DNA of 64,000 bases, taken from NCBI GenBank assembly GCA_964036295.1, contig OZ038471.1, forward strand, positions 11,302,184-11,366,183, read 5' to 3'. This DNA comes from Plumapathes pennacea (taxonomy: Eukaryota; Cnidaria; Anthozoa; Antipatharia; Myriopathidae). Under the pieces are notes generated by a model. That model was not told the origin of the DNA. It did no database searches and worked only from the letters and a program-made list of their open reading frames with translations. A program made the translations under genes and the position numbers. Below are positions 17,926 to 49,185 of the stretch, in pieces. The stretch's first letter is position 1. The number at the start of each line of letters is the position of its first letter.

Positions 17926-18022
17926 TCGGCACCCAGGCACACGGTTCGGACCTTACAATGTGGGAGCTTGTTGAGCGAGCTCAGACCTGAAACCGCGTTG
18001 GGATCCGGGGGAGGTAGACAGT
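17926..18022 (+). repeat. Left-edge spacer fragment of the array, internally deleted
   Basis: The array starts at tcggcacccaggcacacgg. After gaaaccgcgttggg the sequence jumps to the last bases before the 18S start (gggggaggtagacagtta), so roughly 430 bp of the normal spacer is missing. The form gggggaggtagacag is shared only with the right-edge copy; inner copies have cggggtaggtaaacag. Confidence 0.8.
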
Positions 18023-18683
18023 TATCAGGTTGATTATGCAAGTAGTCATATGTTTGTATCAAAGATCCATTACTTTGTTGGAGTTCTAAACTAGAGGTGT
18101 CAGAAATGTTACCAAATGGTAAATGGTTTGTGGCAGAGAAGCGTTCATAGCGAGATTGCTTTTTGGATCTTTTGATGTCGGTTCTTTCTATGATTGGGAA
18201 GCAGAATGCGGCAAGTGTTGGATTGATCACCCATCAGTAGGGAACGAGAGCTGGGTTTAGACCGTCGTGAGACTGGACAGTTTTACCCTAGTGAAGAAAG
18301 ATTGTTGGAATAGTAACTATGCTGAATATGAGAGGAAGCGCAGATTCAGACAATTGGCATTTGTACTTGGCTGAAAAGCCAATGGTGCGAAGCTACCATC
18401 TGTTGGATTATGACTGAACGCCTCTAAGTCAAAATGCGTGCTAGAAGTAACAATTATTATCTTCAGCTGTTCTCAGGCGAACAAGGATAGAAGTTGCGGT
18501 CTCATCTTTCCCAATGTGTAAGGGGAGAGAATAGCCTCCGATGTACTATCCAGACCAAAAGCTAAAACTTCTGCAGGTAGATGTTTTGCAGACGACTTAA
18601 ATAGAGAACGGGATATTGTAAGTTGTAGGGTGGCCTTGTGGCTACAATCTTCTGAGACTTAGCCTCTGTTTTAAGATTTGTTC
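18023..18683 (+). pseudogene. Chimeric 18S/28S rRNA pseudogene, copy 1 (edge, ancestral-like)
   Basis: 18S start at 18023, then a 28S 3' segment. It keeps gctagaggtgtcag and cagtagggaacg, as in real 28S, and reads aatatgagagga at the sarcin-ricin loop (canonical agtacgagagga). Confidence 0.88.
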
Positions 18684-19509
18684 ATTTTTTGACTGACAAG
18701 ATCCTCCTTGGCTTTGGAGACTTGGAAGAAATTAGGGAAATTTTCTCAAGTGTCCAGAAGCGAGGAGGATGATGGCAAAGGAGACCGGCGCCGGTTTTGG
18801 TACTTCCCTTTGGACAGCAATGGACACTTAGAAGAAAATTGAAAAAAGGCCTGTTGGATAGGTCCGGGTACTCTTAAAAGTAGAAATGGACATCATCCAA
18901 GTCGCAGGTAAAGATATACGACAATTTAGGAAAACAATTTATTTTTCACTTATTTTGTGGATTTTGCTTCCTCGGCACCCAGGTACACGGTTCGGACCTT
19001 GTAATGTGGGAGCTTGTTGAGCGAGCTCAGACCTGAAGCCGCGTTGGGTTAGCATGGTCGGCGGCACTGTGAGAGTATGACCGTTTAACGTGGCGTACTA
19101 CGATTGCGTTCGTGCTGGCTGTGTTCTGCCGATTGAGAAAGGTCCTTTCGACCAGTGGTGAAAGGCAAAGAAGAGTTTGGTGTTGTACCTGTATATGCCT
19201 GTAAGGCAAACCAAGTGTGAGTCCGAAGGCACAGCTCGAAGTTTGTCCTGAGGTCGGTGTTGGCTGGCCGCCCGCTGTGAATGGCCCTTTGTCTGGGTCG
19301 AAGCGTGGAAGGCCAGTTCTTCCCGGCTAAGGGAATGCCAAGACGTGGCAAAGATGTCAGCCCTATCGACCGCTGGCTGCCCGTGAGGGTCGTTAGGACG
19401 GATCGGAGGGATATTGAGAGAAACTGGTGAAGAAACACTCGGGTGCTTCTGAGTATTCGCCCGGGCGTCCAGTCTGTTCCAAGAGAGCGGCCCGGGGTAG
19501 GTAAACAGT

Positions 19510-20171
19510 TATCTGGTTGATTATGCAACTAGTTATATGCTTGTATCAAAGATCCATTACTTTGTTGGAGTTCTAAGCTAGAGGTGTCAGTAAAGTTACC
19601 AAATGGTAAATGGTTTGTGGCAGAGAAGCGTTCATAGCGACGTTGCTTTTTGGATCCTTTGATGTCGGCTCTTTCTATGATTGGGAAGCAGAATGCGGCA
19701 AGTGTTGGATTGATCACCCATCAGTAGGGAACGAGAGCTGGGTTTAGACCGTCGTTAGACTGGTTAGTTTTACCCTAGTGAAGAAAGATTGTTGGAATAG
19801 TAACTATGCTGAATATGAGAAGAAGCGCAGATTCAGACAACTGGCATTTGTACTTGGCTGAAAAGCCAATGGTGCGAAGCCACCATCTGTTTGGATTATG
19901 ACTGAACGTCTCTAAGTCAATATGCGTGCTAGAAGTAATAATTATTATGTTTAGCTGTTCTCAGGCGAACAAGGATAGAGGTTACGGTCACATCTTTTCC
20001 AATGTGTAAGGGGAGAGAATAGCCTCCGATGTACTATCCAGACCAAAAGCTAAAACTTCTGCAGGTAGATGTTTTGCAGATGACTTAAATAGAGAACGGG
20101 ATACTGTAAGTTGTAGGGTAGCCTTGTTGCTACAATCTTCTGAGATTTAGCCTCTGTTTTAAGATTTGTTC
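19510..20171 (+). pseudogene. Chimeric 18S/28S rRNA pseudogene, copy 2 (near-edge, intermediate)
   Basis: It has the inner-type 18S start (caactagttatatg) but 28S features of the edge type (gctagaggtgtcag, ggatccttt). Its loop reads aatatgagaaga. Confidence 0.88.
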
Positions 20172-20322
20172 ATTTTCTAACTGATTGACAAGATCCTCCT
20201 TGGCTTTGGAGACTTGGAAGAAATTAGGGAAATTTTCTCAAGTGTCCAGAAGCGAATAGGATAATAGCAAAGGAGACCGGCGCCAGTTTTGGTACTTCCC
20301 TTTGGACAGCAATGGACACTTA

Positions 20323-21656
20323 GAAAAAAATTGAAAAAAAAAAAGCTTGTTGTAGGGGTCCGGGTACTCTTAAAAGTAGATATGGACATCTTCCAAGTCG
20401 TAGGTAAAGATATACGACCATTTGGGAAAACAATTTATTTTTCACTAATTTTGTGGCTTTTGCTTCCTCGGCACCCAGGCACACGGGTCGGACCTTATAA
20501 TGTGGTAGCTTGTTGAGCTAGCTCAGAGCTGAAATCGCGTTGGGTTAGCATGGTCGGCGGCACTGTGAAAGTATGACCGTTTAACGTGGCGTACTACGAT
20601 TGCGTTCGTGCTGGCTGTGTTCTGCCGATTGAGAAAGGTCCTTTCGACCAGTGGTGAAAGGCAAAGAAGAGTTTGGTGTTGTACCTGTATATGCCTGTAA
20701 GGCAAACCAAGTGTATGTTCGATGGCACAGCTCGAGGTTTGTTCTGAGGTCGGTGTTGGCTGGCCGCCCGCTGTGAATGGCCCTTTGTCTGGGTCGAAGC
20801 GTGGAAGGCCAGTTCTTCCCGGCTAAGGGAATGCCAAGACGTGGCAAAGATGTCAGCCCTATCGACCGCTGGCTGCCCGGGAGGGCGGATAAGACGGATC
20901 AGAGGGATATTGAGAGAAACTGGTGAAGAAACAATCGGGTGCTTCTGAGTATTCGCCCGGGCGTCTAGTGTGTTCAAAAAAAATTGAAAAAAAAAAGCTT
21001 GTTGGATGGGTCCGGGTATTCTTAAAAGTAGATATGGACATCTTCCAGGTCGTAGGGGAAGATATACGACCATTTGGGAAAACAATTTATTTTTCACTTA
21101 TTTTGTGGCTTTTGCTTCGTCGGCACCCAGGCACACGGGTCGGACCTTATAATCTGGTAGCTTGTTGAGCTAGCTCAGAGCTGAAATCGCGTTGGGTTAG
21201 CATGGTCGGCGGCACTGTGAAAGTATGACCGTTTAACGTGGCGTACTACGATTGCGTTCGTGCTGGCTGTGTTCTGCCGATTGAGAAAGGTCCTTTCGAC
21301 CAATGGTGAAAGGCAAAGAAGAGTTTGGTGTTGTACCTGTATATGCCTGTAAGGCAAACCAAGTGTATGTTCGATGGCAAAGCTCGAGGTTTGTCCTGAG
21401 GTCGGTGTTGGCTGGCCGCCCGCTGTGAATGGCCCTTTGTCTGGGTCGAAGTGTGGAAGGCCAGTTCTTCCCGGCTAAGGGAATGCCAAGACGTGGCAAA
21501 TATGTTACCCATATCGACCGCTGGCTGCCCGGGAGGGCGGTTAGGACGGATCGGAGGGATATTGAGAGAAACTGGTGAAGAAACACTCGGTTGCTTCTGA
21601 GTATTCGCCGGGCGTCCAGTCTGTTCCAAGAGAGCGGCCCGGGGTAGGTAAACAGT
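20323..21656 (+). repeat. Spacer with a 652-bp internal tandem duplication
   Basis: The segment from the A-rich tract (gaaaaaaattgaaaaaaa, 20323) to about 20974 is repeated from about 20975. The join lies within gcgtctagtgtgttcaaaaa. This makes the distance between copies 2 and 3 2147 bp instead of about 1490. Confidence 0.8.
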
Positions 21657-22318
21657 TATCTGGTTGATCATGCAACTAGTTATATGCTTGTATCAAAGAT
21701 CCATTACTTTGTTGGAGTTCTAAGCTAGTGGTGTCAGACAAGTTACCAAATGGTAAATGGTTTGTGGCAGAGAAGCGTTCATAGCGACGTTGCTTTTTGA
21801 ATCCTTTGATGTCGGCTCTTTCTATGATTGGGAAGCAGAATGCGGCAAGTGTTGGATTGATCACCCATCAGTAATGAACGGGAACTGGGTTTAGACCGTC
21901 GTGAGACCGGTCAGTTTTACCCTAGTGAAGAAAGATTGTTGGAATAGTAACTATGCTGAATATAAGAGGAAGCGCAGATTCAGGCAATTGGCATTTGTAC
22001 TTGGCTGAAAAGCCAATAGTGCGAAGCCACCATCTGTTTGGATTATGACTGAACGCCTCTAAGTCAAAATGCGTGCTAGAAGTAATAATTATTATCTTCA
22101 GCTGTTCTCAGGCGAACAAGGATAGAGGTTGCGGTTTCATCTTTTCCAATGTGTAAGGGGAGAGAATAACCTCCGATGCACTATCCAGACCAAAAGCTAA
22201 AACTTCTGCAGGTAGATGTTTTGCAGATGACTTAAATAGAGAACGGGATACTGTAAGTTGTAGGGTAGCCTTGTTGCTACAATCTTCTGAGACTTAGCCT
22301 CTGTTTTAAGATTTGTTC
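21657..22318 (+). pseudogene. Chimeric 18S/28S rRNA pseudogene, copy 3 (alpha)
   Basis: Alpha form: taactatgctgaat followed by ataagaggaagc. It shares cagacaag with copy 4 only. It is preceded by the duplicated spacer. Confidence 0.88.
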
Positions 22319-23139
22319 ATTTTTTAAGTGACTGACAAGATCCTCCTTGGCTTTGGAGACTTGGAAGAAGTTAGGGAAAATTTCTCAAGTGTCCAGAAGC
22401 GAGGAGGATGATGGCAAAGGAGAGCGGCGCCGGTTTTGGTACTTCCCTTTGGACAGCAATGGACACTTAGAAAAAATTAGAAAAAAAACTTGTTGGATAG
22501 GTCCGGGTACTCTTAAAAGTAGATATGGACATCTTCCAAGTCGTAGGTAAAGATATACGATCATTTGGGAAAACAATTTATTTTTCACTTATTTTGTGGA
22601 TTTTGCTTCCTCGGCACCCAGGCACACGGGTCGGACCTTATAATGTGGGAGTTTGTTGAGCTAGCTCAGACCTGAAAGCGCGTTGGGATAGCATGGTCGG
22701 CGGCACTGTGAGAGTATGACCGTTTAACGTGGCGTACTACGATTGCGTTCGTGCTGGCTGTGTTCTGCCGATTGAGAAACGTCCTTTCGACCAGTGGTGA
22801 AAGGCAAAGAAGTGTTTGGTGTTGTACCTGTATATGCCTGTAAGGCAAACCAAGTGTGAGTCCGAAGGCACAGCTCGAAGTTTGTCCTGAAGTCGGTGTT
22901 GGGTGGCCGCCCGCTGTGAATGGCCCTTTGTCTGGGTCGAAGCGTGGAAGGCCAGTTCTTCTCGGCTAAGGGAATGCCAAGACGTGGAAAAGATGTCAGC
23001 CCTATCGACCGCTGGCTGCCCGGGAGGGCGGTTAGGACGGATATTAAGAGAAACTGGTGAAGAAACACTGGGGTGCTTCTGAGTATTCGCCCGGGCGTCC
23101 AGTCTGTTCCAAGAGAGCGGCCCGGGGTAGGTAAACAGT

Positions 23140-23801
23140 TATCTGGTTGATCATGCAACTAGTTATATGCTTGTATCAAAGATCCATTACTTTGTTGGAG
23201 TTCTAAGCTAGTGGTGTCAGACAAGTTACCAAATGGTAAATGGTTTGTGGCAGAGAAGCGTTCATAGCGACGTTGCTTTTTGAATCCTTTGATGTCGGCT
23301 CTTTCTATGATTGGGAAGCAGAATGCGGCAAGTGTTGGATTGATCACCCATCAGTAATGAACGGGAACTGGGTTTAGACCGTCGTGAGACCGGTCAGTTT
23401 TACCCTAGTGAAGAAAGATTGTTGGAATAGTAACTATGCTGAATATAAGAGGAAGCGCAGATTCAGGCAATTGGCATTTGTACTTGGCTGAAAAGCCAAT
23501 AGTGCGAAGCCACCATCTGTTTGGATTATGACTGAACGCCTCTAAGTCAAAATGCGTGCTAGAAGTAATAATTATTATCTTCAGCTGTTCTCAGGCGAAC
23601 AAGGATAGAGGTTGCGGTCTCATCTTTTCCAATGTGTAAGGGGAGAGAATAACCTCCGATGTACTATCCAGACCAAAAGCTAAAACTTCTGCAGGTAGAT
23701 GTTTTGCAGATGACTTAAATAGAGAACGGGATACTGTAAGTTGTAGGGTAGCCTTGTTGCTACAATCTTCTGAGACTTAGCCTCTGTTTTAAGATTTGTT
23801 C
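23140..23801 (+). pseudogene. Chimeric 18S/28S rRNA pseudogene, copy 4 (alpha, reference copy)
   Basis: 18S-like part 23140–23183 matches 38 of 44 positions of the canonical 18S start with no gaps. The 28S part begins at gatcc (23181), sharing GAT with the 18S end. The peptidyl-transferase segment reads accaaatggtaaatgg against canonical accacagggataactgg, one base shorter. 28S homology ends near aagatttgttc (23801). Confidence 0.9.
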
Positions 23802-24631
23802 ATTTTTTAAGTGACTGACAAGATCCTCCTTGGCTTTGGAGACTTGGAAGAAGTTAGGGAAAATTTCTCAAGTGTCCAGAAGCGAGGAGGATGATGGCAA
23901 AGGAGAGCGGCGCCGGTTTTGGTACTTCCCTTTGGACAGCAATGGACACTTAGAAAAATTTAGAAAAAAAACTTGTTGGATAGGTCCGGGTACTCTTAAA
24001 AGTAGATATGGACATCATCCAAGTCGTAGGTAAAGATATACGACCATTAGGGAAAACAATTTACTTTTCACTTATTTTGTGGATTTTGCTTCCTCGGCAC
24101 CCAGGTACACGTTTCGGACCTTGTAATGTGGGAGCTTGTTGAGCGAGGTCAGACCTGAAACCGCGTTGGGTTAGCATGGTCGGCGGCACTGTGAGAGTAT
24201 GACCGTTTAACGTGGTGTACTACGATTGCGTTCGTGCTGGCTGTGTTCTGCCGATTGAGAAACGTCCTTTCGACCAGTGGTGAAAGGCAAAGAAGAGTTT
24301 GGTGTTGTACCTGTATATGCCTGTAAGGCAAACCAAGTGTGAGTCGGAAGGCACAGCTCGAAGTTTGTCCTGAGGTCGGTGTTGGCTGGCCGCCCCCTGT
24401 GAATGGCCCTTTGTCTGGGTCTAAGCGTGGAAGGCCAGTTCTTCTCGGCTAAGGGAATGCCAAGACGTGGAAAAGATGTCAGCCCTATCGACCGCTGGCT
24501 GCCCGGGAGGGCGGTTAGGACGGATCGGAGGGATATTGATAAAAACTGGTGAAGAAACACTCGAGTGCTTCTGAGTATTCGCCCGGGCGTCCAGTCTGTT
24601 CCAAGAGAGCGGCCCGGGGTAGGTAAACAGT
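23802..24631 (+). other. Representative spacer of the array unit (IGS/ETS-like)
   Basis: It runs from the 28S end to the next 18S start. Order: a segment around ggctttggagacttggaaga; an A-rich tract (gaaaaatttagaaaaaaaac); ggtccgggtactcttaaaag; a T-rich tract; then a GC-richer half (cggcacccagg onwards) that ends gtaggtaaacagt before 18S. By position the last part corresponds to the 5' external transcribed spacer, so the RNA polymerase I start may lie inside the unit. No promoter motif can be confirmed by eye. The minus strand carries frames of 144–163 codons in most copies. Confidence 0.6.
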
Positions 24632-25291
24632 TATCTGGTTGATCATGCAACTAGATATATGCTTGTATCAAAGATCCATTACTTTGTTGGAGTTCTAAGC
24701 TAGTGGTGTCAGAAAAGTTACGAAATGGTAAATGGTTTGTGGCAGAGAAGCGTTCATAGCGACGTTGCTTTTTGAATCCTTTGATGTCGGCTCTTTCTAT
24801 GATTGGGAAGCAGAATGCGGCAAGTGTTGGATTGATCACCCATCAGTAATGAACGGGAACTGGGTTTAGACCGTCGTGAGACGGGTCAGTTTTACCCTAG
24901 TGAAGAAAGATTGTTGGAATAGTAACTGCTGAATATAAGAGTTAGCGCAGATTCAGGCAATTGGCATTTGTACTTGGCTGAAAAGCCAATAGTGCGAAGC
25001 CACCATCTGTTTGGATTTTGACTGAACGCCTCTAAGTCAAAATGCGTGCTAGAAGTAACAATTATTATCTTCAGCTGTTCTCAGGCGAACAAGGATAGAG
25101 GTTGCGGTCTCATCTTTTCCAATATGTAAGGGGAGAGAATAGCCTGCGATGTACTATCCAGACCAAAAGCTAAAACTTCTGCAGGTAGATGTTTTGCAGA
25201 TGACTTAAAAAGAGGACGGGATACTGTAAGTTGTAGGGTAGCCTTGTTGCTACAATCTTCTGAGACTTAGCCTCTGTTTTAAGATTTGTTC
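24632..25291 (+). pseudogene. Chimeric rRNA pseudogene, copy 5 (beta, A spacer before it)
   Basis: Beta form: taactgctgaat (AT lost) and ataagagttagc. It is preceded by a type A spacer (gatcggagggatattgat). Confidence 0.88.
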
Positions 25292-26112
25292 ATTTTATAA
25301 GTGACTGACAAGATCCTCCTTGGCTTTGGAGACTTGGAAGAAATTAGGGAAATTTTCTCAAGTGTCCAGAAGCGAGGAGGATGATGGCAAAGGAGAGCGG
25401 CGCCGGTTTTGGTACTTCCCTTTGGACAGCAATGGACACTTAGAAAAAATTAGAAAAAAAACTTGTTGGATAGGTCCGGGTACTCTTAAAAGTAGATATG
25501 GACATCATCCAAGTCGTAGGTAAAGATATACGACCATTAGGGAAAACAATTTACTTTTCACTTATTTTGTGGATTTTGCTTGCTCGGCACCCAGGTACAC
25601 GTTTCGCACCTTGTAATGTGGGAGCTTGTTGAGCGAGGTCAGACCTGAAACCGCGTTGGGTTAGCATGGTCGGCGGCACTGTGAAAGTATGACCGTTTAA
25701 CGTGGCGTACTACGATTGCGTTCGTGCTGGCTGTGTTCTGCCGATTGAGAAACGTCCTTTCGACCAGTAGTGAAAGGCAAAGAAGTGTTTGGTGTTGTAC
25801 CTGTATATGCCTGTAAGGCAAACCAAGTGTGAGTCCGAAGGCACAGCTCGAAGTTTGTCCTGAAGTCGGTGTTGGCTGGCCGCCCGCTGTGAATGGCCCT
25901 TTGTCTGGGTCGAAGCGTGGAAGGCCAGTTCTTCCCGGCTAAGGGAATGCCAAGACGTGGAAAAGATGTCAGCCCTATCGACCGCTGGCTGCCCGGGAGG
26001 GCGGTTAGGACGGATATTAAGAGAAATTGGTGAAGAAACACTGGGGTGCTTCTGAGTATTCGCCCGGGCGTCCAGTCTGTTCCAAGAGAGCGGCCCGGGG
26101 TAGGTAAACAGT

Positions 26113-26774
26113 TATCTGGTTGATCATGCAACTAGTTATATGCTTGTATCAAAGATCCACTACTTTGTTGGAGTTCTAAGCTAGTGGTGTCAGAAAAGTT
26201 ACGAAATGGTAAATGGTTTGTGGCAGAGAAGCGTTCATAGCGACGTTGCTTTTTGAATCCTTTGATGTCGGCTCTTTCTATGATTGGGAAGCAGAATGCG
26301 GCAAGTGTTGGATTGATCACCCATCAGTAATGAAGGGGAACTGGGTTTAGACCGTCGTGAGACCGGTCAGTTTTACCCTAGTAAAGAAAGATTGTTGGAA
26401 TAGTAACTATGCTGAATATAAGAGGAAGCGCAGATTCAGGCAATTGGCATTTGTACTTGGCTGAAAAGCCAATAGTGCGAAGCCACCATCTGTTTGGATT
26501 ATGACTGAACGCCTCTAAGTCAAAATGCGTGCTAGAAGTAACAATTATTATCTTCAGCTGTTCTCAGGCGAACAAGGATAGAGGTTGCAGTCTCATCTTT
26601 TCCAATATGTAAGGGGAGAGAATAGCCTGCGATGTACTATCCAGACCAAAAGCTAAAACTTCTGCAGGTAGATGTTTTGCAGATGACTTAAAAAGAAGAC
26701 GGGATACTGTAAGTTGTAGGGTAGCCTTGTTGCTACAATCTTCTGAGACTTAGCCTCTGTTTTAAGATTTGTTC
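26113..26774 (+). pseudogene. Chimeric rRNA pseudogene, copy 6 (alpha, B spacer before it)
   Basis: Alpha form in the 28S part. The spacer before it is type B (ggatattaagagaaa, 9 bp shorter than A). Confidence 0.88.
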
Positions 26775-27594
26775 ATTTTATAAGTGACTGACAAGATCCT
26801 CCTTGGCTTTGGAGACTTGGAAGAAATTAGGGAAATTTTCTCAAGTGTCCAGAAGCGAGGAGGATGATGGCAAAGGAGAGCGGCGCCGGTTTTGGTACTT
26901 CCCTTTGGACAGCAATGGACACTTAGAAAAAATTAGAAAAAAAACTTGTTGGATAGGTCCGGGTACTCTTAAAAGTAGATATGGACATCATCCAAGTCGT
27001 AGGTAAAGATATACGACCATTAGGGAAAACAATTTACTTTTCACTTATTTTGTGGATTTTGCTTCCTCGGCACCCAGGTACACGTTTCGGACCTTGTAAT
27101 GTGGGAGCTTGTTGAGCGAGGTCAGACCTGAAACCGCGTTGGGTTAGCATGGTCGGCGGCACTGTGAGAGTATGACCGTTTAACGTGGCGTATACGATTG
27201 CGCTCGTGCTGGCTGTGTTCTGCCGATTGAGAAACGTCCTTTCGACCAATGGTGAAAGGCAAAGAAGTGTTTGGTGTTGTACCTGTATATGCCTGTAAGG
27301 CAAACCAAGTGTGAGTCCGAAGGCACAGCTCGAAGTTTGTCCTGAAGTCGGTGTTGGCTGGCCGCCCCCTGTGAATGGCCGTTTGTCTGGGTCGAAGCGT
27401 GGAAGGCCAGCTCTTCCCGGCTAAGGGAATGCCAAGACGTGGAAAAGATGTCAGCCCTATCGATCGCTGGCTGCCCGGGAGGGCGGTTAGGACGGATATT
27501 GAGAGAAACTGGTGAAGAAACACTGGTGTGCTTCTGAGTATTCGCCCGGGCGTCCAGTCTGTTCCAAGAGAGCGGCCCGGGGTAGGTAAACAGT

Positions 27595-28254
27595 TATCTG
27601 GTTGATCATGCAACTAGTTATATGCTTGTATCAAAGATCCATTACTTTTTTGGAGTTCTAGGCTAGTGGTGTCAGAAAAGTTACCAAATGGTAAATGGTT
27701 TGTGGCAGAGAAGCGTTCATAGCGACGTTGCTTTTTGAATCCTTTGATGTCGGCTCTTTCTATGATTGGGAAGCAGAATGCGGCAAGTGTTGGATTGATC
27801 ACCCATCAGTAATGAAGGGGAACTGGGTTTAGACCGTCGTGAGACGGGTCAGTTTTACCCTAGTGAAGAAAGATTGTTGGAATAGTAACTGCTGAATATA
27901 AGAGTTAGCGCAGATTCAGGCAATTGGCATTTGTACTTGGCTGAAAAGCCAATAGTGCGAAGCCACCATCTGTTTGGATTTTGACTGAACGCCTCTAAGT
28001 CAAAATGCGTGCTAGAAGTAACAATTATTATCTTCAGCTGTTCTCAGGCGAACAAGGATAGAGGTTGCGGTCTCATCTTTTCCAATATGTAAGGGGAGAG
28101 AATAGCCTGCGATGTACTATCCAGACCAAAAGCTAAAACTTCTGCAGGTAGATGTTTTGCAGATGACTTAAAAAGAGGACGGGATACTGTAAGTTGTAGG
28201 GTAGCCTTGTTGCTACAATCTTCTGAGACTTAGCCTCTGTTTTAAGATTTGTTC
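27595..28254 (+). pseudogene. Chimeric rRNA pseudogene, copy 7 (beta, B spacer before it)
   Basis: Beta form. The preceding spacer is a B variant with gtggcgtatacgattgcgc and cagctcttcccgg, also seen before copies 11 and 18. Confidence 0.88.
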
Positions 28255-37977: not shown

Positions 37978-38637
37978 TATCTGGTTGATCATGCAGCTAG
38001 TTATATGCTTGTATCAAAGATCCATTACTTTGTTGGAGTTCTAGGCTAGTGGTGTCAGAAAAGTTACCAAATGGTAAATGGTTTGTGGCAGAGAAGCGTT
38101 CATAGCGACGTTGCTTTTTGAATCCTTTGATGTCGGCTCTTTCTATGATTGGGAAGCAGAATGCGGCAAGTGTTGGATTGATCACCCATCAGTAATGAAG
38201 GGGAACTGGGTTTAGACCGTCGTGAGACGGGTCAGTTTTACCCTAGTGAAGAAAGATTGTTGGAATAGTAACTGCTGAATATAAGAGTTAGCGCAGATTC
38301 AGGCAATTGGCATTTGTACTTGGCTGAAAAGCCAATAGTGCGAAGCCACCATCTGTTTGGATTATGACTGAACGCCTCTAAGTCAAAATGCGTGCTAGAA
38401 GTAATAATTATTATCTTCAGCTGTTCTCAGGAGAACAAGGATAGAGGTTGCGGTCTCATCTTTTCCAATATGTAAGGGGAGAGAATAACCTCCGATGTAC
38501 TATCCAGACCAAAAGCTAAAACTTCTGCAGGTAGATGTTTTGCAGATGACTTAAAAAGAGGACGGGATACTGTAAGTTGTAGGGTAGCCTTGTTGCTACA
38601 ATCTTCTGAGACTTAGCCTCTGTTTTAAGATTTGTTC
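37978..38637 (+). pseudogene. Chimeric rRNA pseudogene, copy 14 (beta, B spacer before it)
   Basis: First half of a 2,970-bp dimer. The spacers on both sides carry variants (ggccggttcttcc before, gaagttaaggaaatt after) that recur exactly 2,970 bp downstream. Confidence 0.88.
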
Positions 38638-39467
38638 ATTTTTTAAGTGACTGACAAGATCCTCCTTGGCTTTGGAGACTTGGAAGAAGTTAAGGAAATT
38701 TTCTCAAGTGTCCAGAAGCGAGGAGGATGATGGCAAAGGAGAGCGGCGCCGGTTTTGGTACTTCCCTTTGGACAGCAATGGACACTTAGAAAAAATTAGA
38801 AAAAAAACTTGTTGGATAGGTCCGGGTACTCTTAAAAGTAGATATGGACATCATCCAAGTCGTAGGTAAAGATATACGACCATTAGGGAAAACAATTTAC
38901 TTTTCACTTATTTTGTGGATTTTGCTTGCTCGGCACCCAGGTACACGTTTCGGACCTTGTAGTGTGGGAGCTTGTTGAGCGAGGTCAGACCTGAAACCGC
39001 GTTGGGTTAGCATGGTCGGCGGCACTGTGAGAGTATGACCGTTTAACGTGGTGTACTACGATTGCGTTCGTGCTGGCTGTGTTCTGCCGATTGAGAAACG
39101 TCCTTTCGACCAGTGGTGAAAGGCAAAGAAGAGTTTGGTGTTGTACCTGTATATGCCTGTAAGGCAAACCAAGTGTGAGTCGGAAGGCACAGCTCGAAGT
39201 TTGTCCTGGGGTCGGTGTTGGCTGGCCGCCCCCTGTGAATGGCCCTTTGTCTGGGTCTAAGCGTGGAAGGCCAGTTCTTCTCGGCTAAGGGAATGCCAAG
39301 ACGTGGAAAAGATGTCAGCCCTATCGACCGCTGGCTGCCCGGGAGGGCGGTTAGGACGGATCGGAGGGATATTGAGAAAAACTGGTGAAGAAACACTCGA
39401 GTGCTTCTGAGTATTCGCCCGGGCGTCCAGTCTGTTCCAAGAGAGCGGCCCGGGGTAGGTAAACAGT

Positions 39468-40127
39468 TATCTGGTTGATCATGCAACTAGATATATGCTT
39501 GTATCAAAGATCCATTACTTTGTTGGAGTTCTAAGCTAGTGGTGTCAGAAAAGTTACCAAATGGTAAATGGTTTGTGGCAGAGAAGCGTTCATAGCGACG
39601 TTGCTTTTTGAATCCTTTGATGTCGGCTCTTTCTATGATTGGGAAGCAGAATGCGGCAAGTGTTGGATTGATCACCCATCAGTAATGAAGGGGAACTGGG
39701 TTTAGACCGTCGTGAGACGGGTCAGTTTTACCCTAGTGAAGAAAGATTGTTGGAATAGTAACTGCTGAATATAAGAGTTAGCGCAGATTCAGGCAATTGG
39801 CATTTGTACTTGGCTGAAAAGCCAATAGTGCGAAGCCACCATCTGTTTGGATTTTGACTGAACGCCTCTAAGTCAAAATGCGTGCTAGAAGTAACAATTA
39901 TTATCTTCAGCTGTTCTCAGGCGAACAAGGATAGAGGTTGCGGTCTCATCTTTTCCAATATGTAAGGGGAGAGAATAGCCTGCGATGTACTATCCAGACC
40001 AAAAGCTAAAACTTCTGCAGGTAGATGTTTTGCAGATGACTTAAAAAGAGGACGGGATACTGTAAGTTGTAGGGTAGCCTTGTTGCTACAATCTTCTGAG
40101 ACTTAGCCTCTGTTTTAAGATTTGTTC
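39468..40127 (+). pseudogene. Chimeric rRNA pseudogene, copy 15 (beta, A spacer before it)
   Basis: Second half of the dimer that starts with copy 14. The preceding spacer has cttgtagtgtgggag and gtcctggggtcgg, both repeated 2,970 bp on. Confidence 0.88.
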
Positions 40128-40947
40128 ATTTTATAAGTGACTGACAAGATCCTCCTTGGCTTTGGAGACTTGGAAGAAATTAGGGAAATTTTCTCAAGTG
40201 TCCAGAAGCGAGGAGGATGATGGCAAAGGAGAGCGGCGCCGGTTTTGGTACTTCCCTTTGGACAGCAATGGACACTTAGAAAAAATTAGAAAAAAAACTT
40301 GTTGGATAGGTCCGGGTACTCTTAAAAGTAGATATGGACATCATCCAAGTCGTAGGTAAAGATATACGACCATTAGGGAAAACAATTTACTTTTCACTTA
40401 TTTTGTGGATTTTGCTTGCTCGGCACCCAGGTACACGTTTCGGACCTTGTAATGTGAGAGCTTGTTGAGCGAGGTCAGACCTGAAACCGCGTTGGGTTAG
40501 CATGGTCGGCGGCACTGTGAGAGTATGACCGTTTAACGTGGCGTATACGATTGCGCTCGTGCTGGCTGTGTTCTGCCGATTGAGAAACGTCCTTTCGACC
40601 AGTGGTGAAAGGCAAAGAAGTGTTTGGTGTTGTACCTGTATATGCCTGTAAGGCAAACCAAGTGTGAGTCCGAAGGCACAGCTCGAAGTTTGTCCTGAAG
40701 TCGGTGTTGGCTGGCCGCCCGCTGTGAATGGCCCTTTGTCTGGGTCGAAGCGTGGAAGGCCGGTTCTTCCCGGCTAAGGGAATGCCAAGACGTGGAAAAG
40801 ATGTCAGCCCTATCGACCGCTGGCTGCCCGGGAGGGCGGTTAGGACGGATGTTAAGAGAAACTGGTGAAGAAACACTGGGGTGCTTCTGAGTATTCGCCC
40901 GGGCGTCCAGTCTGTTCCAAGAGAGCGGCTCGGGGTAGGTAAACAGT

Positions 40948-41607
40948 TATCTGGTTGATCATGCAGCTAGTTATATGCTTGTATCAAAGATCCATTACTT
41001 TGTTGGAGTTCTAGGCTAGTGGTGTCAGAAAAGTTACCAAATGGTAAATGGTTTGTGGCAGAGAAGCGTTCATAGCGACGTTGCTTTTTGAATCCTTTGA
41101 TGTCGGCTCTTTCTATGATTGGGAAGCAGAATGCGGCAAGTGTTGGATTGATCACCCATCAGTAATGAAGGGGAACTGGGTTTAGACCGTCGTGAGACGG
41201 GTCAGTTTTACCCTAGTGAAGAAAGATTGTTGGAATAGTAACTGCTGAATATAAGAGTTAGCGCAGATTCAGGCAATTGGCATTTGTACTTGGCTGAAAA
41301 GCCAATAGTGCGAAGCCACCATCTGTTTGGATTATGACTGAACGCCTCTAAGTCAAAATGCGTGCTAGAAGTAATAATTATTATCTTCAGCTGTTCTCAG
41401 GAGAACAAGGATAGAGGTTGCGGTCTCATCTTTTCCAATATGTAAGGGGAGAGAATAACCTCCGATGTACTATCCAGACCAAAAGCTAAAACTTCTGCAG
41501 GTAGATGTTTTGCAGATGACTTAAAAAGAGGACGGGATACTGTAAGTTGTAGGGTAGCCTTGTTGCTACAATCTTCTGAGACTTAGCCTCTGTTTTAAGA
41601 TTTGTTC
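40948..41607 (+). pseudogene. Chimeric rRNA pseudogene, copy 16 (beta, B spacer before it)
   Basis: Counterpart of copy 14 in the next dimer, with the same private spacer variants on both sides. Confidence 0.88.
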
Positions 41608-42437
41608 ATTTTTTAAGTGACTGACAAGATCCTCCTTGGCTTTGGAGACTTGGAAGAAGTTAAGGAAATTTTCTCAAGTGTCCAGAAGCGAGGAGGATGA
41701 TGGCAAAGGAGAGCGGCGCCGGTTTTGGTACTTCCCTTTGGACAGCAATGGACACTTAGAAAAAATTAGAAAAAAAACTTGTTGGATAGGTCCGGGTACT
41801 CTTAAAAGTAGATATGGACATCATCCAAGTCGTAGGTAAAGATATACGACCATTAGGGAAAACAATTTACTTTTCACTTATTTTGTGGATTTTGCTTGCT
41901 CGGCACCCAGGTACACGTTTCGGACCTTGTAGTGTGGGAGCTTGTTGAGCGAGGTCAGACCTGAAACCGCGTTGGGTTAGCATGGTCGGCGGCACTGTGA
42001 GAGTATGACCGTTTAACGTGGTGTACTACGATTGCGTTCGTGCTGGCTGTGTTCTGCCGATTGAGAAACGTCCTTTCGACCAGTGGTGAAAGGCAAAGAA
42101 GAGTTTGGTGTTGTACCTGTATATGCCTGTAAGGCAAACCAAGTGTGAGTCGGAAGGCACAGCTCGAAGTTTGTCCTGGGGTCGGTGTTGGCTGGCCGCC
42201 CCCTGTGAATGGCCCTTTGTCTGGGTCTAAGCGTGGAAGGCCAGTTCTTCTCGGCTAAGGGAATGCCAAGACGTGGAAAAGATGTCAGCCCTATCGACCG
42301 CTGGCTGCCCGGGAGGGCGGTTAGGACGGATCGGAGGGATATTGATAAAAACTGGTGAAGAAACACTCGAGTGCTTCTGAGTATTCGCCCGGGCGTCCAG
42401 TCTGTTCCAAGAGAGCGGCCCGGGGTAGGTAAACAGT

Positions 42438-43097
42438 TATCTGGTTGATCATGCAACTAGATATATGCTTGTATCAAAGATCCATTACTTTGTTGGAGTT
42501 CTAAGCTAGTGGTGTCAGAAAAGTTACCAAATGGTAAATGGTTTGTGGCAGAGAAGCGTTCATAGCGACGTTGCTTTTTGAATCCTTTGATGTCGGCTCT
42601 TTCTATGATTGGGAAGCAGAATGCGGCAAGTGTTGGATTGATCACCCATCAGTAATGAAGGGGAACTGGGTTTAGACCGTCGTGAGACGGGTCAGTTTTA
42701 CCCTAGTGAAGAAAGATTGTTGGAATAGTAACTGCTGAATATAAGAGTTAGCGCAGATTCAGGCAATTGGCATTTGTACTTGGCTGAAAAGCCAATAGTG
42801 CGAAGCCACCATCTGTTTGGATTTTGACTGAACGCCTCTAAGTCAAAATGCGTGCTAGAAGTAACAATTATTATCTTCAGCTGTTCTCAGGCGAACAAGG
42901 ATAGAGGTTGCGGTCTCATCTTTTCCAATATGTAAGGGGAGAGAATAGCCTGCGATGTACTATCCAGACCAAAAGCTAAAACTTCTGCAGGTAGATGTTT
43001 TGCAGATGACTTAAAAAGAGGACGGGATACTGTAAGTTGTAGGGTAGCCTTGTTGCTACAATCTTCTGAGACTTAGCCTCTGTTTTAAGATTTGTTC
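42438..43097 (+). pseudogene. Chimeric rRNA pseudogene, copy 17 (beta, A spacer before it)
   Basis: Counterpart of copy 15 in the next dimer. The preceding spacer differs slightly (gatattgataaaaac instead of gatattgagaaaaac). Confidence 0.88.
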
Positions 43098-43917
43098 ATT
43101 TTATAAGTGACTGACAAGATCCTCCTTGGCTTTGGAGACTTGGAAGAAATTAGGGAAATTTTCTCAAGTGTCCAGAAGCGAGGAGGATGATGGCAAAGGA
43201 GAGCGGCGCCGGTTTTGGTACTTCCCTTTGGACAGCAATGGACACTTAGAAAAAATTAGAAAAAAAACTTGTTGGATAGGTCCGGGTACTCTTAAAAGTA
43301 GATATGGACATCATCCAAGTCGTAGGTAAAGATATACGACCATTAGGGAAAACAATTTACTTTTCACTTATTTTGTGAATTTTGCTTCCTCGGCACCCAG
43401 GTACACGTTTCGGACCTTGTAATGTGGGAGCTTGTTGAGCGAGGTCAGACCTGAAACCGCGTTGGGTTAGCATGGTCGGCGGCACTGTGAGAGTATGACC
43501 GTTTAACGTGGCGTATACGATTGCGCTCGTGCTGGCTGTGTTCTGCCGATTGAGAAACGTCCTTTCGACCAGTGGTGAAAGGCAAAGAAGAGTTTGGTGT
43601 TGTACCTGTATATGCCTGTAAGGCAAACCAAGTGTGAGTCCGAAGGCACAGCTCGAAGTTTGTCCTGAAGTCGGTGTTGGCTGGCCGCCCCCTGTGAATG
43701 GCCGTTTGTCTGGGTCGAAGCGTGGAAGGCCAGCTCTTCCCGGCTAAGGGAATGCCAAGACGTGGAAAAGATGTCAGCCCTATCGATCGCTGGCTGCCCG
43801 GGAGGGCGGTTAGGACGGATATTGAGAGAAACTGGTGAAGAAACACTGGTGTGTTTCTGAGTATTCGCCCGGGCGTCCAGTCTGTTCCAAGAGAGCGGCT
43901 CGGGGTAGGTAAACAGT

Positions 43918-44577
43918 TATCTGGTTGATCATGCAACTAGTTATATGCTTGTATCAAAGATCCATTACTTTGTTGGAGTTCTAGGCTAGTGGTGTCAGAA
44001 AAGTTACCAAATGGTAAATGGTTTGTGGCAGAGAAGCGTTCATAGCGACGTTGCTTTTTGAATCCTTTGATGTCGGCTCTTTCTATGATTGGGAAGCAGA
44101 ATGCGGCAAGTGTTGGATTGATCACCCATCAGTAATGAAGGGGAACTGGGTTTAGACCGTCGTGAGACGGGTCAGTTTTACCCTAGTGAAGAAAGATTGT
44201 TGGAATAGTAACTGCTGAATATAAGAGTTAGCGCAGATTCAGGCAATTGGCATTTGTACTTGGCTGAAAAGCCAATAGTGCGAAGCCACCATCTGTTTTG
44301 ATTTTGACTGAACGCCTCTAAGTCAAAATGCGTGCTAGAAGTAACAATTATTATCTTCAGCTGTTCTCAGGCGAACAAGGATAGAGGTTGCGGTCTCATC
44401 TTTTCCAATATGTAAGGGGAGAGAATAGCCTGCGATGTACTATCCAGACCAAAAGCTAAAACTTCTGCAGGTAGATGTTTTGCAGATGACTTAAAAAGAG
44501 GACGGGATACTGTAAGTTGTAGGGTAGCCTTGTTGCTACAATCTTCTGAGACTTAGCCTCTGTTTTAAGATTTGTTC
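43918..44577 (+). pseudogene. Chimeric rRNA pseudogene, copy 18 (beta, B spacer before it)
   Basis: It carries the ctgttttgattttgactg variant of copy 8 and is followed by the same rare spacer variant (aaatttgaaaaaaaac, ggatgggtccgg). Confidence 0.88.
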
Positions 44578-45407
44578 ATTTTATAAGTGACTGACAAGAT
44601 CCTCCTTGGCTTTGGAGACTTGGAAGAAATTAGGGAAATTTTCTCAAGTGTCCAGAAGCGAGGAGGATGATGGCAAAGGAGAGCGGCGCCGGTTTTGGTA
44701 CTTCCCTTTGGACAGCAATGGACACTTAGAAAAAATTTGAAAAAAAACTTGTTGGATGGGTCCGGGTACTCTTAAAAGTAGATATGGACATCATCCAAGT
44801 CGTAGGTAAAGATATACGACCATTAGGGAAAACAATTTACTTTTCACTTATTTTGTGGATTTTGCTTCCTCGGCACCCAGGTACACGTTTCGGACCTTGT
44901 AATGTGGGAGCTTGTTGAGCGAGGTCAGACCTGAAACCGCGTTGGGTTAGCATGGTCGGCGGCACTGTGAGAGTATGACCGTTTAACGTGGTGTACTACG
45001 ATTGCGTTCGTGCTGGCTGTGTTCTGCCGATTGAGAAACGTCCTTTCGACCAGTGGTGAAAGGCAAAGAAGTGTTTGGTGTTGTACCTGTATATGCCTGT
45101 AAGGCAAACCAAGTGTGAGTCGGAAGGCACAGCTCGAAGTTTGTCCTGAGGTCGGTGTTGGCTGGCCGCCCCCTGTGAATGGCCCTTTGTCTGGGTCTAA
45201 GCGTGGAAGGCCAGTTCTTCTCGGCTAAGGGAATGCCAAGACGTGGAAAAGATGTCAGCCCTATCGACCGCTGGCTGCCCGGGAGGGCGGTTAGGACGGA
45301 TCGGAGGGATATTGAGAAAAACTGGTGAAGAAACACTCGAGTGCTTCTGAGTATTCGCCCGGGCGTCCAGTCTGTTCCAAGAGAGCGGCCCGGGGTAGGT
45401 AAACAGT

Positions 45408-46067
45408 TATCTGGTTGATCATGCAACTAGTTATATGCTTGTATCAAAGATCCATTACTTTGTTGGAGTTCTAGGCTAGTGGTGTCAGAAAAGTTACCAA
45501 ATGGTAAATGGTTTGTGGCAGAGAAGCGTTCATAGCGACGTTGCTTTTTGAATCCTTTGATGTCGGCTCTTTCTATGATTGGGAAGCAGAATGCGGCAAG
45601 TGTTGGATTGATCACCCATCAGTAATGAAGGGGAACTGGGTTTAGACCGTCGTGAGACGGGTCAGTTTTACCCTAGTGAAGAAAGATTGTTGGAATAGTA
45701 ACTGCTGAATATAAGAGTTAGCGCAGATTCAGGCAATTGGCATTTGTACTTGGCTGAAAAGCCAATAATGCGAAGCCACCATCTGTTTGGATTTTGACTG
45801 AACGCCTCTAAGTCAAAATGCGTGCTAGAAGTAACAATTATTATCTTCAGCTGTTCTCAGGCGAACAAGGATAGAGGTTGCGGTCTCATCTTTTCCAATA
45901 TGTAAGGGGAGAGAATAGCCTGCGATGTACTATCCAGACCAAAAGCTAAAACTTCTGCAGGTAGATGTTTTGCAGATGACTTAAAAAGAGGACGGGATAC
46001 TGTAAGTTGTAGGGTAGCCTTGTTGCTACAATCTTCTGAGACTTAGCCTCTGTTTTAAGATTTGTTC
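45408..46067 (+). pseudogene. Chimeric rRNA pseudogene, copy 19 (beta, A spacer before it)
   Basis: Beta form with a private change ccaataatgcgaagcc (45763–45778). Confidence 0.88.
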
Positions 46068-46887
46068 ATTTTATAAGTGACTGACAAGATCCTCCTTGGC
46101 TTTGGAGACTTGGAAGAAATTAGGGAAATTTTCTCAAGTGTCCAGAAGCGAGGAGGATGATGGCAAAGGAGAGCGGCGCCGGTTTTGGTACTTCCCTTTG
46201 GACAGCAATGGACACTTAGAAAAAATTAGAAAAAAAACTTGTTGGATAGGTCCGGGTACTCTTAAAAGTAGATATGGACATCATCCAAGTCGTAGGTAAA
46301 GATATACGACCATTAGGGAAAACAATTTACTTTTCACTTATTTTGTGGATTTTGCTTGCTCGGCACCCAGGTACACGTTTCGGACCTTGTAATGTGAGAG
46401 CTTGTTGAGCGAGGTCAGACCTGAAACCGCGTTGGGTTAGCATGGTCGGCGGCACTGTGAGAGTATGACCGTTTAACGTGGCGTATACGATTGCGCTCGT
46501 GCTGGCTGTGTTCTGCCGATTGAGAAACGTCCTTTCGACCAGTGGTGAAAGGCAAAGAAGAGTTTGGTGTTGTACCTGTATATGCCTGTAAGGCAAACCA
46601 AGTGTGAGTCCGAAGGCACAGCTCGAAGTTTGTCCTGAAGTCGGTGTTGGCTGGCCGCCCGCTGTGAATGGCCCTTTGTCTGGGTCGAAGCGTGGAAGGC
46701 CAGTTCTTCCCGGCTAAGGGAATGCCAAGACGTGGAAAAGATGTCAGCCCTATTGACCGCTGGCTGCCCGGGAGGGCGGTTAGGACGGATATTAAGAGAA
46801 ACTGGTGAAGAAACACTGGGGTGCTTCTGAGTATTCGCCCGGGCGTCCAGTCTGTTCCAAGAGAGCGGCTCGGGGTAGGTAAACAGT

Positions 46888-47547
46888 TATCTGGTTGATC
46901 ATGCAATTAGTTATATGCTTGTATCAAAGATCCATTACTTTGTTGGAGTTCTAGGCTAGTGGTGTCAGAAAAGTTACCAAATGGTAAATGGTTTGTGGCA
47001 GAGAAGCGTTCATAGCGACGTTGCTTTTTGAATCCTTTGATGTCGGCTCTTTCTATGATTGGGAAGCAGAATGCGGCAAGTGTTGGATTGATCACCCATC
47101 AGTAATGAAGGGGAACTGGGTTTAGACCGTCGTGAGACGGGTCAGTTTTACCCTAGTGAAGAAAGATTGTTGGAATAGTAACTGCTGAATATAAGAGTTA
47201 GCGCAGATTCAGGCAATTGGCATTTGTACTTGGCTGAAAAGCCAATAGTGCGAAGCCACCATCTGTTTGGATTATGACTGAACGCCTCTAAGTCAAAATG
47301 CGTGCTAGAAGTAATAATTATTATCTTCAGCTGTTCTCAGGAGAACAAGGATAGAGGTTGCGGTCTCATCTTTTCCAATATGTAAGGGGAGAGAATAACC
47401 TCCGATGTACTATCCAGACCAAAAGCTAAAACTTCTGCAGGTAGATGTTTTGCAGATGACTTAAAAAGAGGACGGGATACTGTAAGTTGTAGGGTAGCCT
47501 TGTTGCTACAATCTTCTGAGACTTAGCCTCTGTTTTAAGATTTGTTC
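46888..47547 (+). pseudogene. Chimeric rRNA pseudogene, copy 20 (beta, B spacer before it)
   Basis: Beta form with gcaattagttatatgc at the 18S start. It is followed by a slightly diverged spacer (gtgttcaaaagcgagg), marking the approach to the array edge. Confidence 0.88.
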
Positions 47548-48376
47548 ATTTTTTAAGTGACTGACAAGATCCTCCTTGGCTTTGGAGACTTAGAAGAAGT
47601 TAGGGAAAATTTCTCAAGTGTTCAAAAGCGAGGAGGATGATGGCAAAGGAGAGCGGCGCCGGTTTTGGTACTTCCCTTTGGACAGCAATGGACACTTAGA
47701 AAAAATTAGAAAAAAAACTTGTTGGATAGGTCCGGGTACTCTTAAAAGTAGATATGGACATCATCCAAGTCGTAGGTAAAGATATACGACCATTAGGGAA
47801 AACAATTTACTTTTCACTTATTTTGTGGATTTTGCTTCCTCGGCACCCAGGTACACGTTTCGGACCTTGTAATGTGGGAGCTTGTTGAGCGAGGTCAGAC
47901 CTGAAACCGCGTTGGGTTAGCATGGTCGGCGGCACTGTGAGAGTATGACCGTTTAACGTGGTGTACTACGATTGCGTTCGTGCTGGCTGTGTTCTGCCGA
48001 TTGAGAAACGTCCTTTCGACCAGTGGTGAAAGGCAAAGAAGAGTTTGGTGTTGTACCTGTATATGCCTGTAAGGCAAACCAAGTGTGAGTCCGAGGGCAC
48101 AGGTCAAAGTTTGTCCAGCGGTCGGTGTTGGCTGGCCGCCCGCTGTGAATGGCCCTTTCTCTGGGTCGAAGCGTGGAAGGCCAGTTCTTCCCGGCTAAGG
48201 GAATGCCAAGACGTGGCAAAGATGTCAGCCTTCTCGACCGCTGGTTGCCCGTAGGTCGGTTAGGACGGATCGGAGGGATATTGAGAGAAACGGGTGAAGC
48301 CACACTCGGGTGTTTCTGAGTATTCGCCTGGTAGTCTAGTCTGTTCGAAGAGAGCGGGCCGGGGGAGGTAGACAGT

Positions 48377-49035
48377 TATCTGGTTGATCATGCAAGTAGT
48401 CATATGCTTGTATCAAAGATCCATTAGTTTGTTGGAGTTCTAAGCTAGAGGTGTCAGAAAAGTTACCAAATGGTAAATGGTTTGTGGCAGAGAAACGTTC
48501 ATAGCGACGTTGCTTTTTGGATCCTTTGATGTCAGCTCTTTCTATGATTGAGAAGCAGATTGCGGCAAGTGTTGGATTGATCACCCATCAGTAGGGAACG
48601 GGAGCTGGGTTTAGACCGTCGTGAGACCGGTCAGTTTTACCATAGTGAAGAAAGATTGTTGGAATAGTAACTATGCTGAATATAAGAGGAAGCGCAGATT
48701 CAGACAATTGGCATTTGTACTTGGCTGAAAAGCAAATTGTGCGAAGCTACCATCTGTTGGATTATGACTGAACGGCTCTAAGTCAAATTGCGTGCTAGAA
48801 GTAACAATTATTGTCCTCAGCTGTTCTCAGCCAACAAGGATAGAAGTTGCGGTCTCATGTCTCCCAATGTGTAAGGGGAGAGAATAGCCTCCGATGTACT
48901 ATCCAGACCAAAAGCTAAAACTTCTGCAGGTAGATCTTTCGCAGACGATTTAAATTGAGAATGGGATACTGTAAGTTGTAAGGTAGCCTTCTTGCTACAA
49001 TCTTTAGAGAGTTAGCCTCTGTTTTAAGATTTGTT
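48377..49035 (+). pseudogene. Chimeric rRNA pseudogene, copy 21 (right edge, ancestral-like)
   Basis: Closest to real 18S: the first 44 nt match 40 of 44 canonical positions, including gcaagtagtcatatgc. The 28S part keeps gctagaggtgtcagaaaag, ggatccttt and cagtagggaacggg. Spacer just before it reads gggggaggtagacag, as in copy 1. Confidence 0.88.
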
Positions 49036-49185
49036 CATTTTTTAACTGACTGACAAGATCCTCTATGGCTTTGGAGACTTGGAAGAAATTAGGGAAATTT
49101 TCTCAAGTGTCCAGAAGCGAGGAGGATGATGGCAAAGGGGACCGGCGCCGGTTTTGGTACTTCGCTTTGGACAGCAATGGACACT
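49036..49185 (+). repeat. Right-edge truncated spacer of the array
   Basis: The spacer runs from the 28S end to cagcaatggacactt and then breaks off just before the A-rich tract. The next bases (gagaatttggcatttgagg) belong to a LINE fragment. Confidence 0.8.

Follow-up and report, generated by a model that had tools for sequence, protein, structure and literature searches.

A tandem array of internally deleted 18S-28S rDNA units between a cut Polinton-like element and a cut dispersed repeat in Plumapathes pennacea

The locus and its features

The window, the whole 64,000-nucleotide stretch of Plumapathes pennacea DNA analyzed here, lies on contig C10, contains no N letters, and carries a head-to-tail array of mini-rDNA units between two cut repeats. 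The look of the 18S and of Death and COR genes would suit a cnidarian host. The first-pass annotation proposed a tandem array of 21 units of 1480-1492 bp ending at 49185. The 21 junction-bearing units are borne out, with the end at 49186, and the unit length holds for 19 of the 20 inter-unit spacings. The remaining spacing is 2147 bp because unit 2 (u2) holds an additional partial spacer copy at its end. The features of the window are as follows.

810-7871, no strand assigned: Polinton-like gene region
810-1481, minus strand: A32-type packaging ATPase
2235-2723, minus strand: capsid-like frame, under the Pfam cut-off
2869-3732, plus strand: rve integrase
5358-7871, minus strand: endonuclease-VII-like frame, under the Pfam cut-off
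14901-17927, no strand assigned: left flank, fragment of a Polinton-like element cut by the array
17926-49186, plus strand: mini-rDNA array of 21 junction-bearing units, from spacings and junction search
17926-18002, plus strand: left-edge fragment of 5' external transcribed spacer (ETS) and spacer; about 430 bp of ETS are missing before unit 1
18023-18066, plus strand: first 44 nt of 18S in unit 1, degenerate
18064-18679, plus strand: last 616 nt of 28S in unit 1, degenerate; GAT at 18064-18066 is common to the 18S part
20977-21629, plus strand: partial spacer/ETS duplication of about 652 bp at the end of unit 2, matching unit positions 825-1479 only
24632-24675, plus strand: 18S part of u5, an inner unit typical of the homogenized center
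48408-49186, plus strand: u21, the last unit, counted from its junction anchor; mostly ancestral bases, ending within the spacer
49191-49732, minus strand: right flank, dispersed-repeat fragment truncated by the array; the six other copies examined continue past the border

Anatomy of the unit

Each unit passes from the first 44 nt of 18S into the last ~616 nt of 28S, then into a shortened spacer and the ETS. Naming of the ETS and promoter follows what is generally accepted for rDNA, as do the order of its parts and the R2 insertion-site sequence. The 18S and 28S parts meet on a 3-nt overlap, GAT, confirming the earlier reading of an 18S start joined to roughly the last 600 nt of 28S. In seven units the Rfam eukaryotic LSU model (3401 positions) is matched over 2827-2984 and 3004-3399 (14 matches in total, best E 2.7e-44), while the other 14 of the 21 fall below the Rfam threshold. 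The 44-nt 18S piece has no Rfam match and is identified by alignment, in which it is colinear with the genome's own ETS-18S region. Alignment to native sequence thus finds homology at both gene segments, and the ETS/intergenic spacer (IGS) and 28S parts are homologous to native-type loci on contig C7, as in an rDNA-derived satellite. Functional rDNA has complete 18S, 5.8S, and 28S, whereas each unit retains only 44 nt and ~616 nt of gene sequence.

The array was first described as the product of one internal deletion. A single junction common to all 21 units and to a solo copy elsewhere on the contig agrees with this for the gene body, but the spacer is shortened as well, its ~190-bp subrepeat block being reduced to about one copy, so more than one deletion is needed. 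A coding role for the long minus-strand open frames of the units was rejected because native ETS and the solo copy have similar open stretches. The head-to-tail, non-coding repeat has the tandem form of satellite DNA, but not the abundance of a satellite found at many loci: one 31-kb array and one solo unit are recovered by a junction pattern allowing up to 3 mismatches, which could miss more diverged copies.

Divergence from native rDNA

The C7 rDNA loci hold long N runs, and no complete native 18S-5.8S-28S unit is readable in them. Among themselves, four native-type 28S pieces share 99.7-100% identity. Against one of these, L012, the 28S part of the eight units compared (of 21) is 86.0-88.0% identical, and that of the solo copy 86.7%. 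ETS identity to native is 83%, much like the 86% of 28S overall; decay is nevertheless uneven in detail, since spacer/ETS identity ranges from 50 to 96% across 50-column alignment windows. Where spacer and ETS meet, one block is well conserved in native rDNA, the array, the solo copy, and a relic on contig C8. Two core motifs of L012 28S, presumably the sarcin-ricin and peptidyl-transferase motifs, have no exact match within the window. Judged by sequence, the array is not collapsed normal rDNA, because its 28S part is only 86-88% identical to native in the eight units compared and the two core motifs are gone.

The solo copy and the distribution of rDNA

A 30-nt pattern for the junction, allowed up to 3 mismatches, has 22 matches in 290 Mb and none when reversed as a control. 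The array accounts for 21 of these, and the solo unit, 2 Mb away on C10, is the only further junction-bearing copy that the pattern finds. Across 636 sites of 28S, 114 are changed: 53 are shared by the solo copy and u5 against native, 30 are confined to u5 and 25 to the solo copy, and at 6 all three differ. The solo copy is 90.0-92.1% identical in 28S to the eight units compared. With 53 of the 114 changes in common, the solo copy and the array stem from one already degenerate unit. The ends of the solo copy overlap by 37 nt, and inspection of its flanks by eye reveals no target-site duplication. Within 10 kb around it, only a common repeat matches the window apart from the unit itself.

The first-pass annotation proposed amplification away from normal rDNA; amplification, and a place away from most other rDNA, are supported. 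Among the 40 best-scoring rDNA-like matches, an incomplete list from which the array itself is absent, 36 lie on C7, two on C8, and two on C10, both of the latter being the solo copy. The array thus lies on a different contig from 36 of these 40 and may lie outside the nucleolar organizer.

Homogenization of the array

Units u3-u19 have a mean mutual identity of 98.4%, compared with 90-92% between solo copy and array in 28S, the pattern of concerted evolution. In a native-rooted tree the array forms a clade (support 97) in which u21 and u1 are outermost, followed by u2, u3, and u4 in their spatial order (supports 76, 100, 100, and 96). The ancestral base was scored at 56 sites that vary within the array but are the same in native and solo. 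It is kept at 31 of 33 sites in u1, 46 of 56 in u2, 38 of 56 in u3, 32 of 56 in u4, 22-30 of 56 in u5-u20, and 50 of 56 in u21. The ancestral base is therefore kept more often at the edges, as unequal crossing-over predicts. In an earlier test at 43 sites the low counts of u5-u19 were partly built in because sites were picked by the u5-u19 majority; the repeat at 56 sites, made without that choice, kept the edge pattern. Identity rises moderately from edge to center over the entire array (Spearman 0.52, p 0.017, permutation 0.008), and u20, adjoining the right edge, resembles an inner unit. A two-unit higher-order repeat, suggested by alternating spacings of 1480 and 1490 bp, was dropped, as identity has no clear dependence on unit distance (Spearman -0.15, p 0.08).

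The flanks

The array was initially placed inside a Polinton, which the borders contradict. The left flank belongs to a Polinton-like element and is cut at 17927, the first 2 nt of the array (TC) being common to array and flank. A 96% identical copy of this element at C10:9.37 Mb continues for 1.3 kb without the array, and six further copies (L046-L050 and L052), read from among many more, contain no array sequence in the 1.25-1.5 kb readable past the cut. Only one 94-nt repeat matches between the left-flank copies and the sequence right of the array. On the right, u21 is followed by a 4-nt filler, GAGA, and by a different dispersed repeat cut at ~49191. This repeat is LINE-like by eye from the look of its frames, a name not confirmed when a fuller copy was searched against Pfam and PDB. 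Polinton-like sequence is thus found on one side of the array only, and no Polinton-like genes occur to the right among 8 of the 14 frames of at least 120 aa.

The best other copies of the two flanks lie at C10:9.37 Mb (left) and C10:9.02 Mb (right), near the region of the solo copy and in the same order and orientation, a proximity that independent insertion does not explain.

Origin of the array

The array is probably a satellite founded by one rDNA unit that was internally deleted, transposed, and amplified. In a first step, one rDNA copy would have lost everything from 18S nt 44 to the last ~616 nt of 28S, the deletion ends meeting on the shared GAT, perhaps through end-joining, and the ~190-bp subrepeat block would have shrunk too, to about one copy. 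The small unit then came to stand, as this assembly shows, on a contig other than the one that holds most rDNA. The most likely route appears to be the joining of an excised piece or circle of rDNA to broken, TE-rich DNA, because the borders cut unrelated elements with only a 2-nt overlap or a 4-nt filler. The case for a circle is weak: integrated circles should begin and end in the same phase, and despite the 37-nt overlap of the solo ends, the array starts and ends ~145 nt out of phase. Freed from rRNA selection, the unit decayed as a whole, and the solo copy separated after much of that decay. Unequal crossing-over may then have amplified and homogenized the center, leaving old units stranded at the edges. 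The array most likely has no function.

A former small nucleolar organizer, in which an rDNA cluster on C10 died in place and shrank to a deletion variant, is possible but unlikely. The founder was a stretch that contained both spacer and gene, since spacer, ETS, 18S start, and 28S end stand in their native order; the solo relative on the same contig and other rDNA relics on C7 and C8 also suit a cluster that died where it stood. A full-length rDNA relic is nonetheless absent from the window and from 10 kb around the solo copy (flanks L021 and L022 lie outside the Rfam scan), and the borders cut two unrelated elements almost without overlap, as expected of inserted DNA.

A reading of the collapsed unit as selfish mini-rDNA is improbable. 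On this view it would have kept the spacer, promoter region, and both gene ends, shed the gene body, and so become a small replicon-like circle able to spread to new sites and still transcribable, in the way that small deletion mutants win out over full genomes elsewhere. Quite improbable, too, is that the units still work, yielding a short chimeric RNA from RNA polymerase I or serving a nucleolar or pairing role. Most retain the ETS, and the conserved border block would suit such activity, but the 28S part has diverged about as far as the ETS (86% and 83% identity to native) and u1 is without most of its ETS.

An assembly artefact, through collapse of normal rDNA or a spurious array built up from chimeric reads, is highly improbable. 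rDNA is difficult to assemble, and several C7 loci have long N runs, but the window is N-free, the units differ from one another and by 12-14% from native 28S, degenerate changes are common to the units and a solo copy 2 Mb off, and the tree matches spatial order on the left side. Carriage as Polinton cargo is barely credible: in its favor are the Polinton-like left flank and the ATPase and integrase genes there, but the right flank is a different repeat, the copies read past the left cut are without the array, and the surroundings of the solo copy match the window only in a common repeat.

Relation to other rDNA-derived repeats

Many satellites have no traceable birth. Here the 18S-28S junction acts as a barcode and so fixes the founding event to the base, the solo sister copy puts the steps of the proposed history in relative order, and the graded edge units form a natural test case for unequal crossing-over. 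Because native rRNA is a nearly unchanging ancestor, most changes in the satellite 28S can be polarized. rDNA-related repeats are also reported from potato.

Satellites derived from rDNA, and truncated rDNA units in tandem, have been published before, in tomato (PMC2679016). There, recombination multiplied seven degenerate units in tandem, with 18S 92-94% and 25S 89-91% identical to typical rDNA, and segmental duplication and a TE were involved (Jo et al., 2009; PMC2679016). As in P. pennacea, these are degenerate rDNA in tandem, but the tomato units essentially retain 18S, 5.8S, and 25S, carry an LTR retrotransposon and extra IGS, and the amplified satellite is a 52-53-bp IGS subrepeat (PMC2679016). 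The repeat here is a 1.48-kb chimera with the gene nearly all deleted. Reports on plants and Lepidoptera describe IGS-derived or IGS-associated satellites, possibly outside rDNA clusters, and likewise indicate that rDNA spacer sequence can seed a satellite (PMC5615363; PMC10257491). Those satellites involve spacer, whereas the present unit has both gene ends, marking the exact deletion. In the titles and abstract openings of open-licence literature, no description of a chimeric 18S-28S or gene-body rDNA satellite was found. The process is a known one, of which the array is an unusually clear variant.

Degenerate rDNA pieces also occur elsewhere in the genome as relics (L014-L019) on C7 and C8. 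They differ from the array in that none shows tandem amplification within the surrounding 9-10 kb of sequence. The C8 relics L018 and L019 are closer to native rDNA than to the array, and a sibling relationship with the array was rejected on that ground. L014 and L015 are, like the array units, internally deleted, and carry a second 18S-to-28S deletion present in two genome copies by pattern.

Unit structure and array layout

By repeat spacing and alignment, 21 units of the mini-rDNA satellite (u1-u21, left to right) span 17926-49186 of the window, which is C10:11302184-11366183 in the 290-Mb, 24-contig assembly. The first-pass annotation had the number of units right and gave their period as 1480-1492 bp, which fits 19 of the 20 unit intervals; the remaining interval measures 2147 bp, and the array ends at 49186 rather than 49185. 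Tandem Repeats Finder does not report the array because the tool's maximum period is 500. The Rfam eukaryotic LSU model matches 7 of the 21 units at model positions 2827-3399 of 3401 (14 matches, two stretches per matched unit; best E 2.7e-44). The other 14 fall below the Rfam threshold, and all units align to the query unit at 92-96% identity.

Each unit is a fusion in which the 18S start runs up to CAAAGAT, continues as 28S from GATCC through its 3' end (616 nt in u1) and passes into a short spacer. Alignment to native rDNA pieces bears out the earlier reading that the 18S start is joined directly to the 28S end, ahead of a spacer. The native sequences at the break sites, CAAAGATTAAGCC in 18S and CTATCGATCCTTTAG in 28S, both contain GAT, and the fusion therefore shares GAT. 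Spacer has been lost: subrepeats of ~190 bp, of which native spacers hold many (L005, L009, L011), number about one in the mini-unit. From the external transcribed spacer (ETS) into the beginning of 18S, the unit is colinear with native rDNA (unit 879-1480 then 7-74 against L009 4239-4892 then 4900-4967). One native ETS stretch is missing from the unit, from the solo copy on the same contig and from a relic on C8 (L019), so native rDNA may have gained it after these three departed. Minus-strand open frames of 128-163 aa span the ETS in many units (e.g. 24207-24650); they are probably a composition effect, with similar frames in the native ETS and the solo copy.

Divergence and the solo copy

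The native yardsticks are L009 and L023 for ETS-18S (100% alike) and L012, L011, L009 and L010 for 28S (99.7-100% alike), a reference pieced together from fragments, with long N runs in several C7 loci and no complete unit readable. The rDNA loci at about 6-9 Mb of C7 (L009, L011, L012, L013, L023, L024) are broken by such runs, and in several the readable sequence comes in blocks of exactly 2500 or 5000 bp.

Against L012, the 28S part has decayed to 86.0-88.0% identity over ~640 sites in the array (8 of 21 units compared) and to 86.7% in the solo copy. Exact searches for two core motifs of L012 find neither in the window. Of 636 comparable 28S sites, 53 have a base common to the solo copy and u5 but unlike native rDNA; differences confined to u5 number 30 and those confined to the solo copy 25, and at 6 sites all three differ. 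The common differences therefore indicate a shared, already degenerate ancestor of both loci. Judged by its sequence, the array is neither normal rDNA nor an artefact.

Allowing up to 3 mismatches, the 30-nt junction occurs 22 times in the genome: the array accounts for 21, and the remaining one is that of the solo copy at C10:9346594 (-), where two of the three mismatches are identical to native sequence. The solo copy is one unit long, and its ends directly overlap by 37 nt. Among the 40 best listed matches to a unit, an incomplete set in which the array itself is missing, 36 lie on C7, two on C8 and two on C10; the array thus sits on another contig than most of the rDNA found.

Old edges and a uniform centre

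In a tree of the 21 units, the solo copy and native rDNA, the array forms a clade (support 97) in which u21 and u1 are outermost and u2, u3 and u4 then branch off successively (supports 76, 100, 100, 96). Ancestral bases were counted at 56 array-variable sites where native rDNA and the solo copy have the same base: u1 retains them at 31 of its 33 readable sites, u2, u3 and u4 at 46, 38 and 32 of 56, u5-u20 at 22-30 and u21 at 50. The edges are old, graded on the left and abrupt on the right; mean identity among u3-u19 is 98.4%. An earlier 43-site count gives the same picture (u1 20/30, u21 27/42, u20 1/42), with sites picked by inner-unit majority, a selection that itself favours the edge pattern.

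Flanks and borders

The left flank is a Polinton-like element whose last stretch ends at 17927. Its Pfam matches are:

Left of array: A32-type ATPase, E 6.4e-16
Left of array: rve integrase, E 6.1e-8
Left of array: capsid match, E 0.0011, below cut-off
Left of array: endonuclease VII match, E 0.00013, below cut-off

The Pfam scan covered 12 of 15 frames of at least 120 aa left of the array, and no polymerase domain was found. Seven of many copies of the element were examined (40 of 147 candidates scored). Six are readable for 1.25-1.5 kb beyond the cut and lack array sequence. Of these, L047 and L049 continue into sequence resembling window 563-2151. A 96%-alike copy at C10:9.367 Mb likewise runs 1.3 kb beyond the cut without the array. 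Window 1-17927 and L021 show two Polinton-like copies in series: window 15775-17927 has a look-alike at L021 852-3229, in the solo flank, and elsewhere copies of this stretch lead on into sequence resembling the left end of the window.

From ~49191, the right flank is a fragment of a different dispersed repeat, six other copies of which (L054-L059) extend past the border point. By eye, its frames resemble the final part of a LINE reverse transcriptase, an identity that Pfam and PDB searches do not confirm. The left border reads GCCAATTC then GGCACCC, with 2 nt shared, and the right border GGACACTT, GAGA, ATTTGGC. From these sequences and the cut flanks, the array connects two elements that are both broken and unrelated to each other. 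The first-pass placement inside a Polinton does not hold: the right side is another repeat, with no Polinton-like gene in the 8 of 14 right-hand frames scanned. Polinton-like copies match the right side only in one 94-nt stretch, which occurs on both sides of the array. Further right, 53655-63153 (-) holds host-like frames with a Death-domain match (E 5.9e-8), a weak NTPase match and a below-cut-off COR match.

Outside the window, the best copies of the two flanks are at 9.37 and 9.02 Mb of C10 with the solo copy between them (C10:9020565-9371889), in the window's order and orientation but spread over 351 kb, an arrangement that an independent insertion does not explain. In the 10 kb around the solo copy, only the unit and a common repeat match the window.

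Comparison with known satellites

Satellites derived from rDNA are already known and come mainly from spacers (PMC5615363, PMC10257491). The nearest known case is tomato, with truncated rDNA units in tandem at 89-94% of normal (PMC2679016). No satellite of the present design was found among the open-licence papers listed. Unlike in these cases, the repeat unit here is itself a collapsed gene, its founding deletion defined to single-base precision.

Proposed origin and R2 elements

The deletion and the insertion were each probably sealed by end-joining. The unit probably reached its present site as a piece of rDNA that had been excised, linear or circular, and the array was probably shaped by unequal crossing-over. 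Circumstantially, R2 breakage is a possible cause of the founding deletion. By protein similarity, the genome carries R2 elements: the 28S of L015 holds an insertion with an open stretch that resembles R2 retrotransposon proteins of known structure (E 2.7e-29 and 3.6e-14) and has no Pfam match, and L014 has a similar insertion in its 28S.

C7:6025001-6035000 (L015): degenerate rDNA unit, R2 retrotransposon 3' end inserted in 28S
C7:6036001-6046000 (L014): degenerate rDNA unit, R2 retrotransposon 3' end inserted in 28S

Both carry another internal fusion, from about nt 700 of 18S to about model position 1930 of 28S, a pattern that a genome search finds in 2 copies. The 28S of L011 (C7:8258001-8268000) lacks roughly 400 nt across the R2 site; the gap lies further up than its final 644 compared sites, which are identical to L012.
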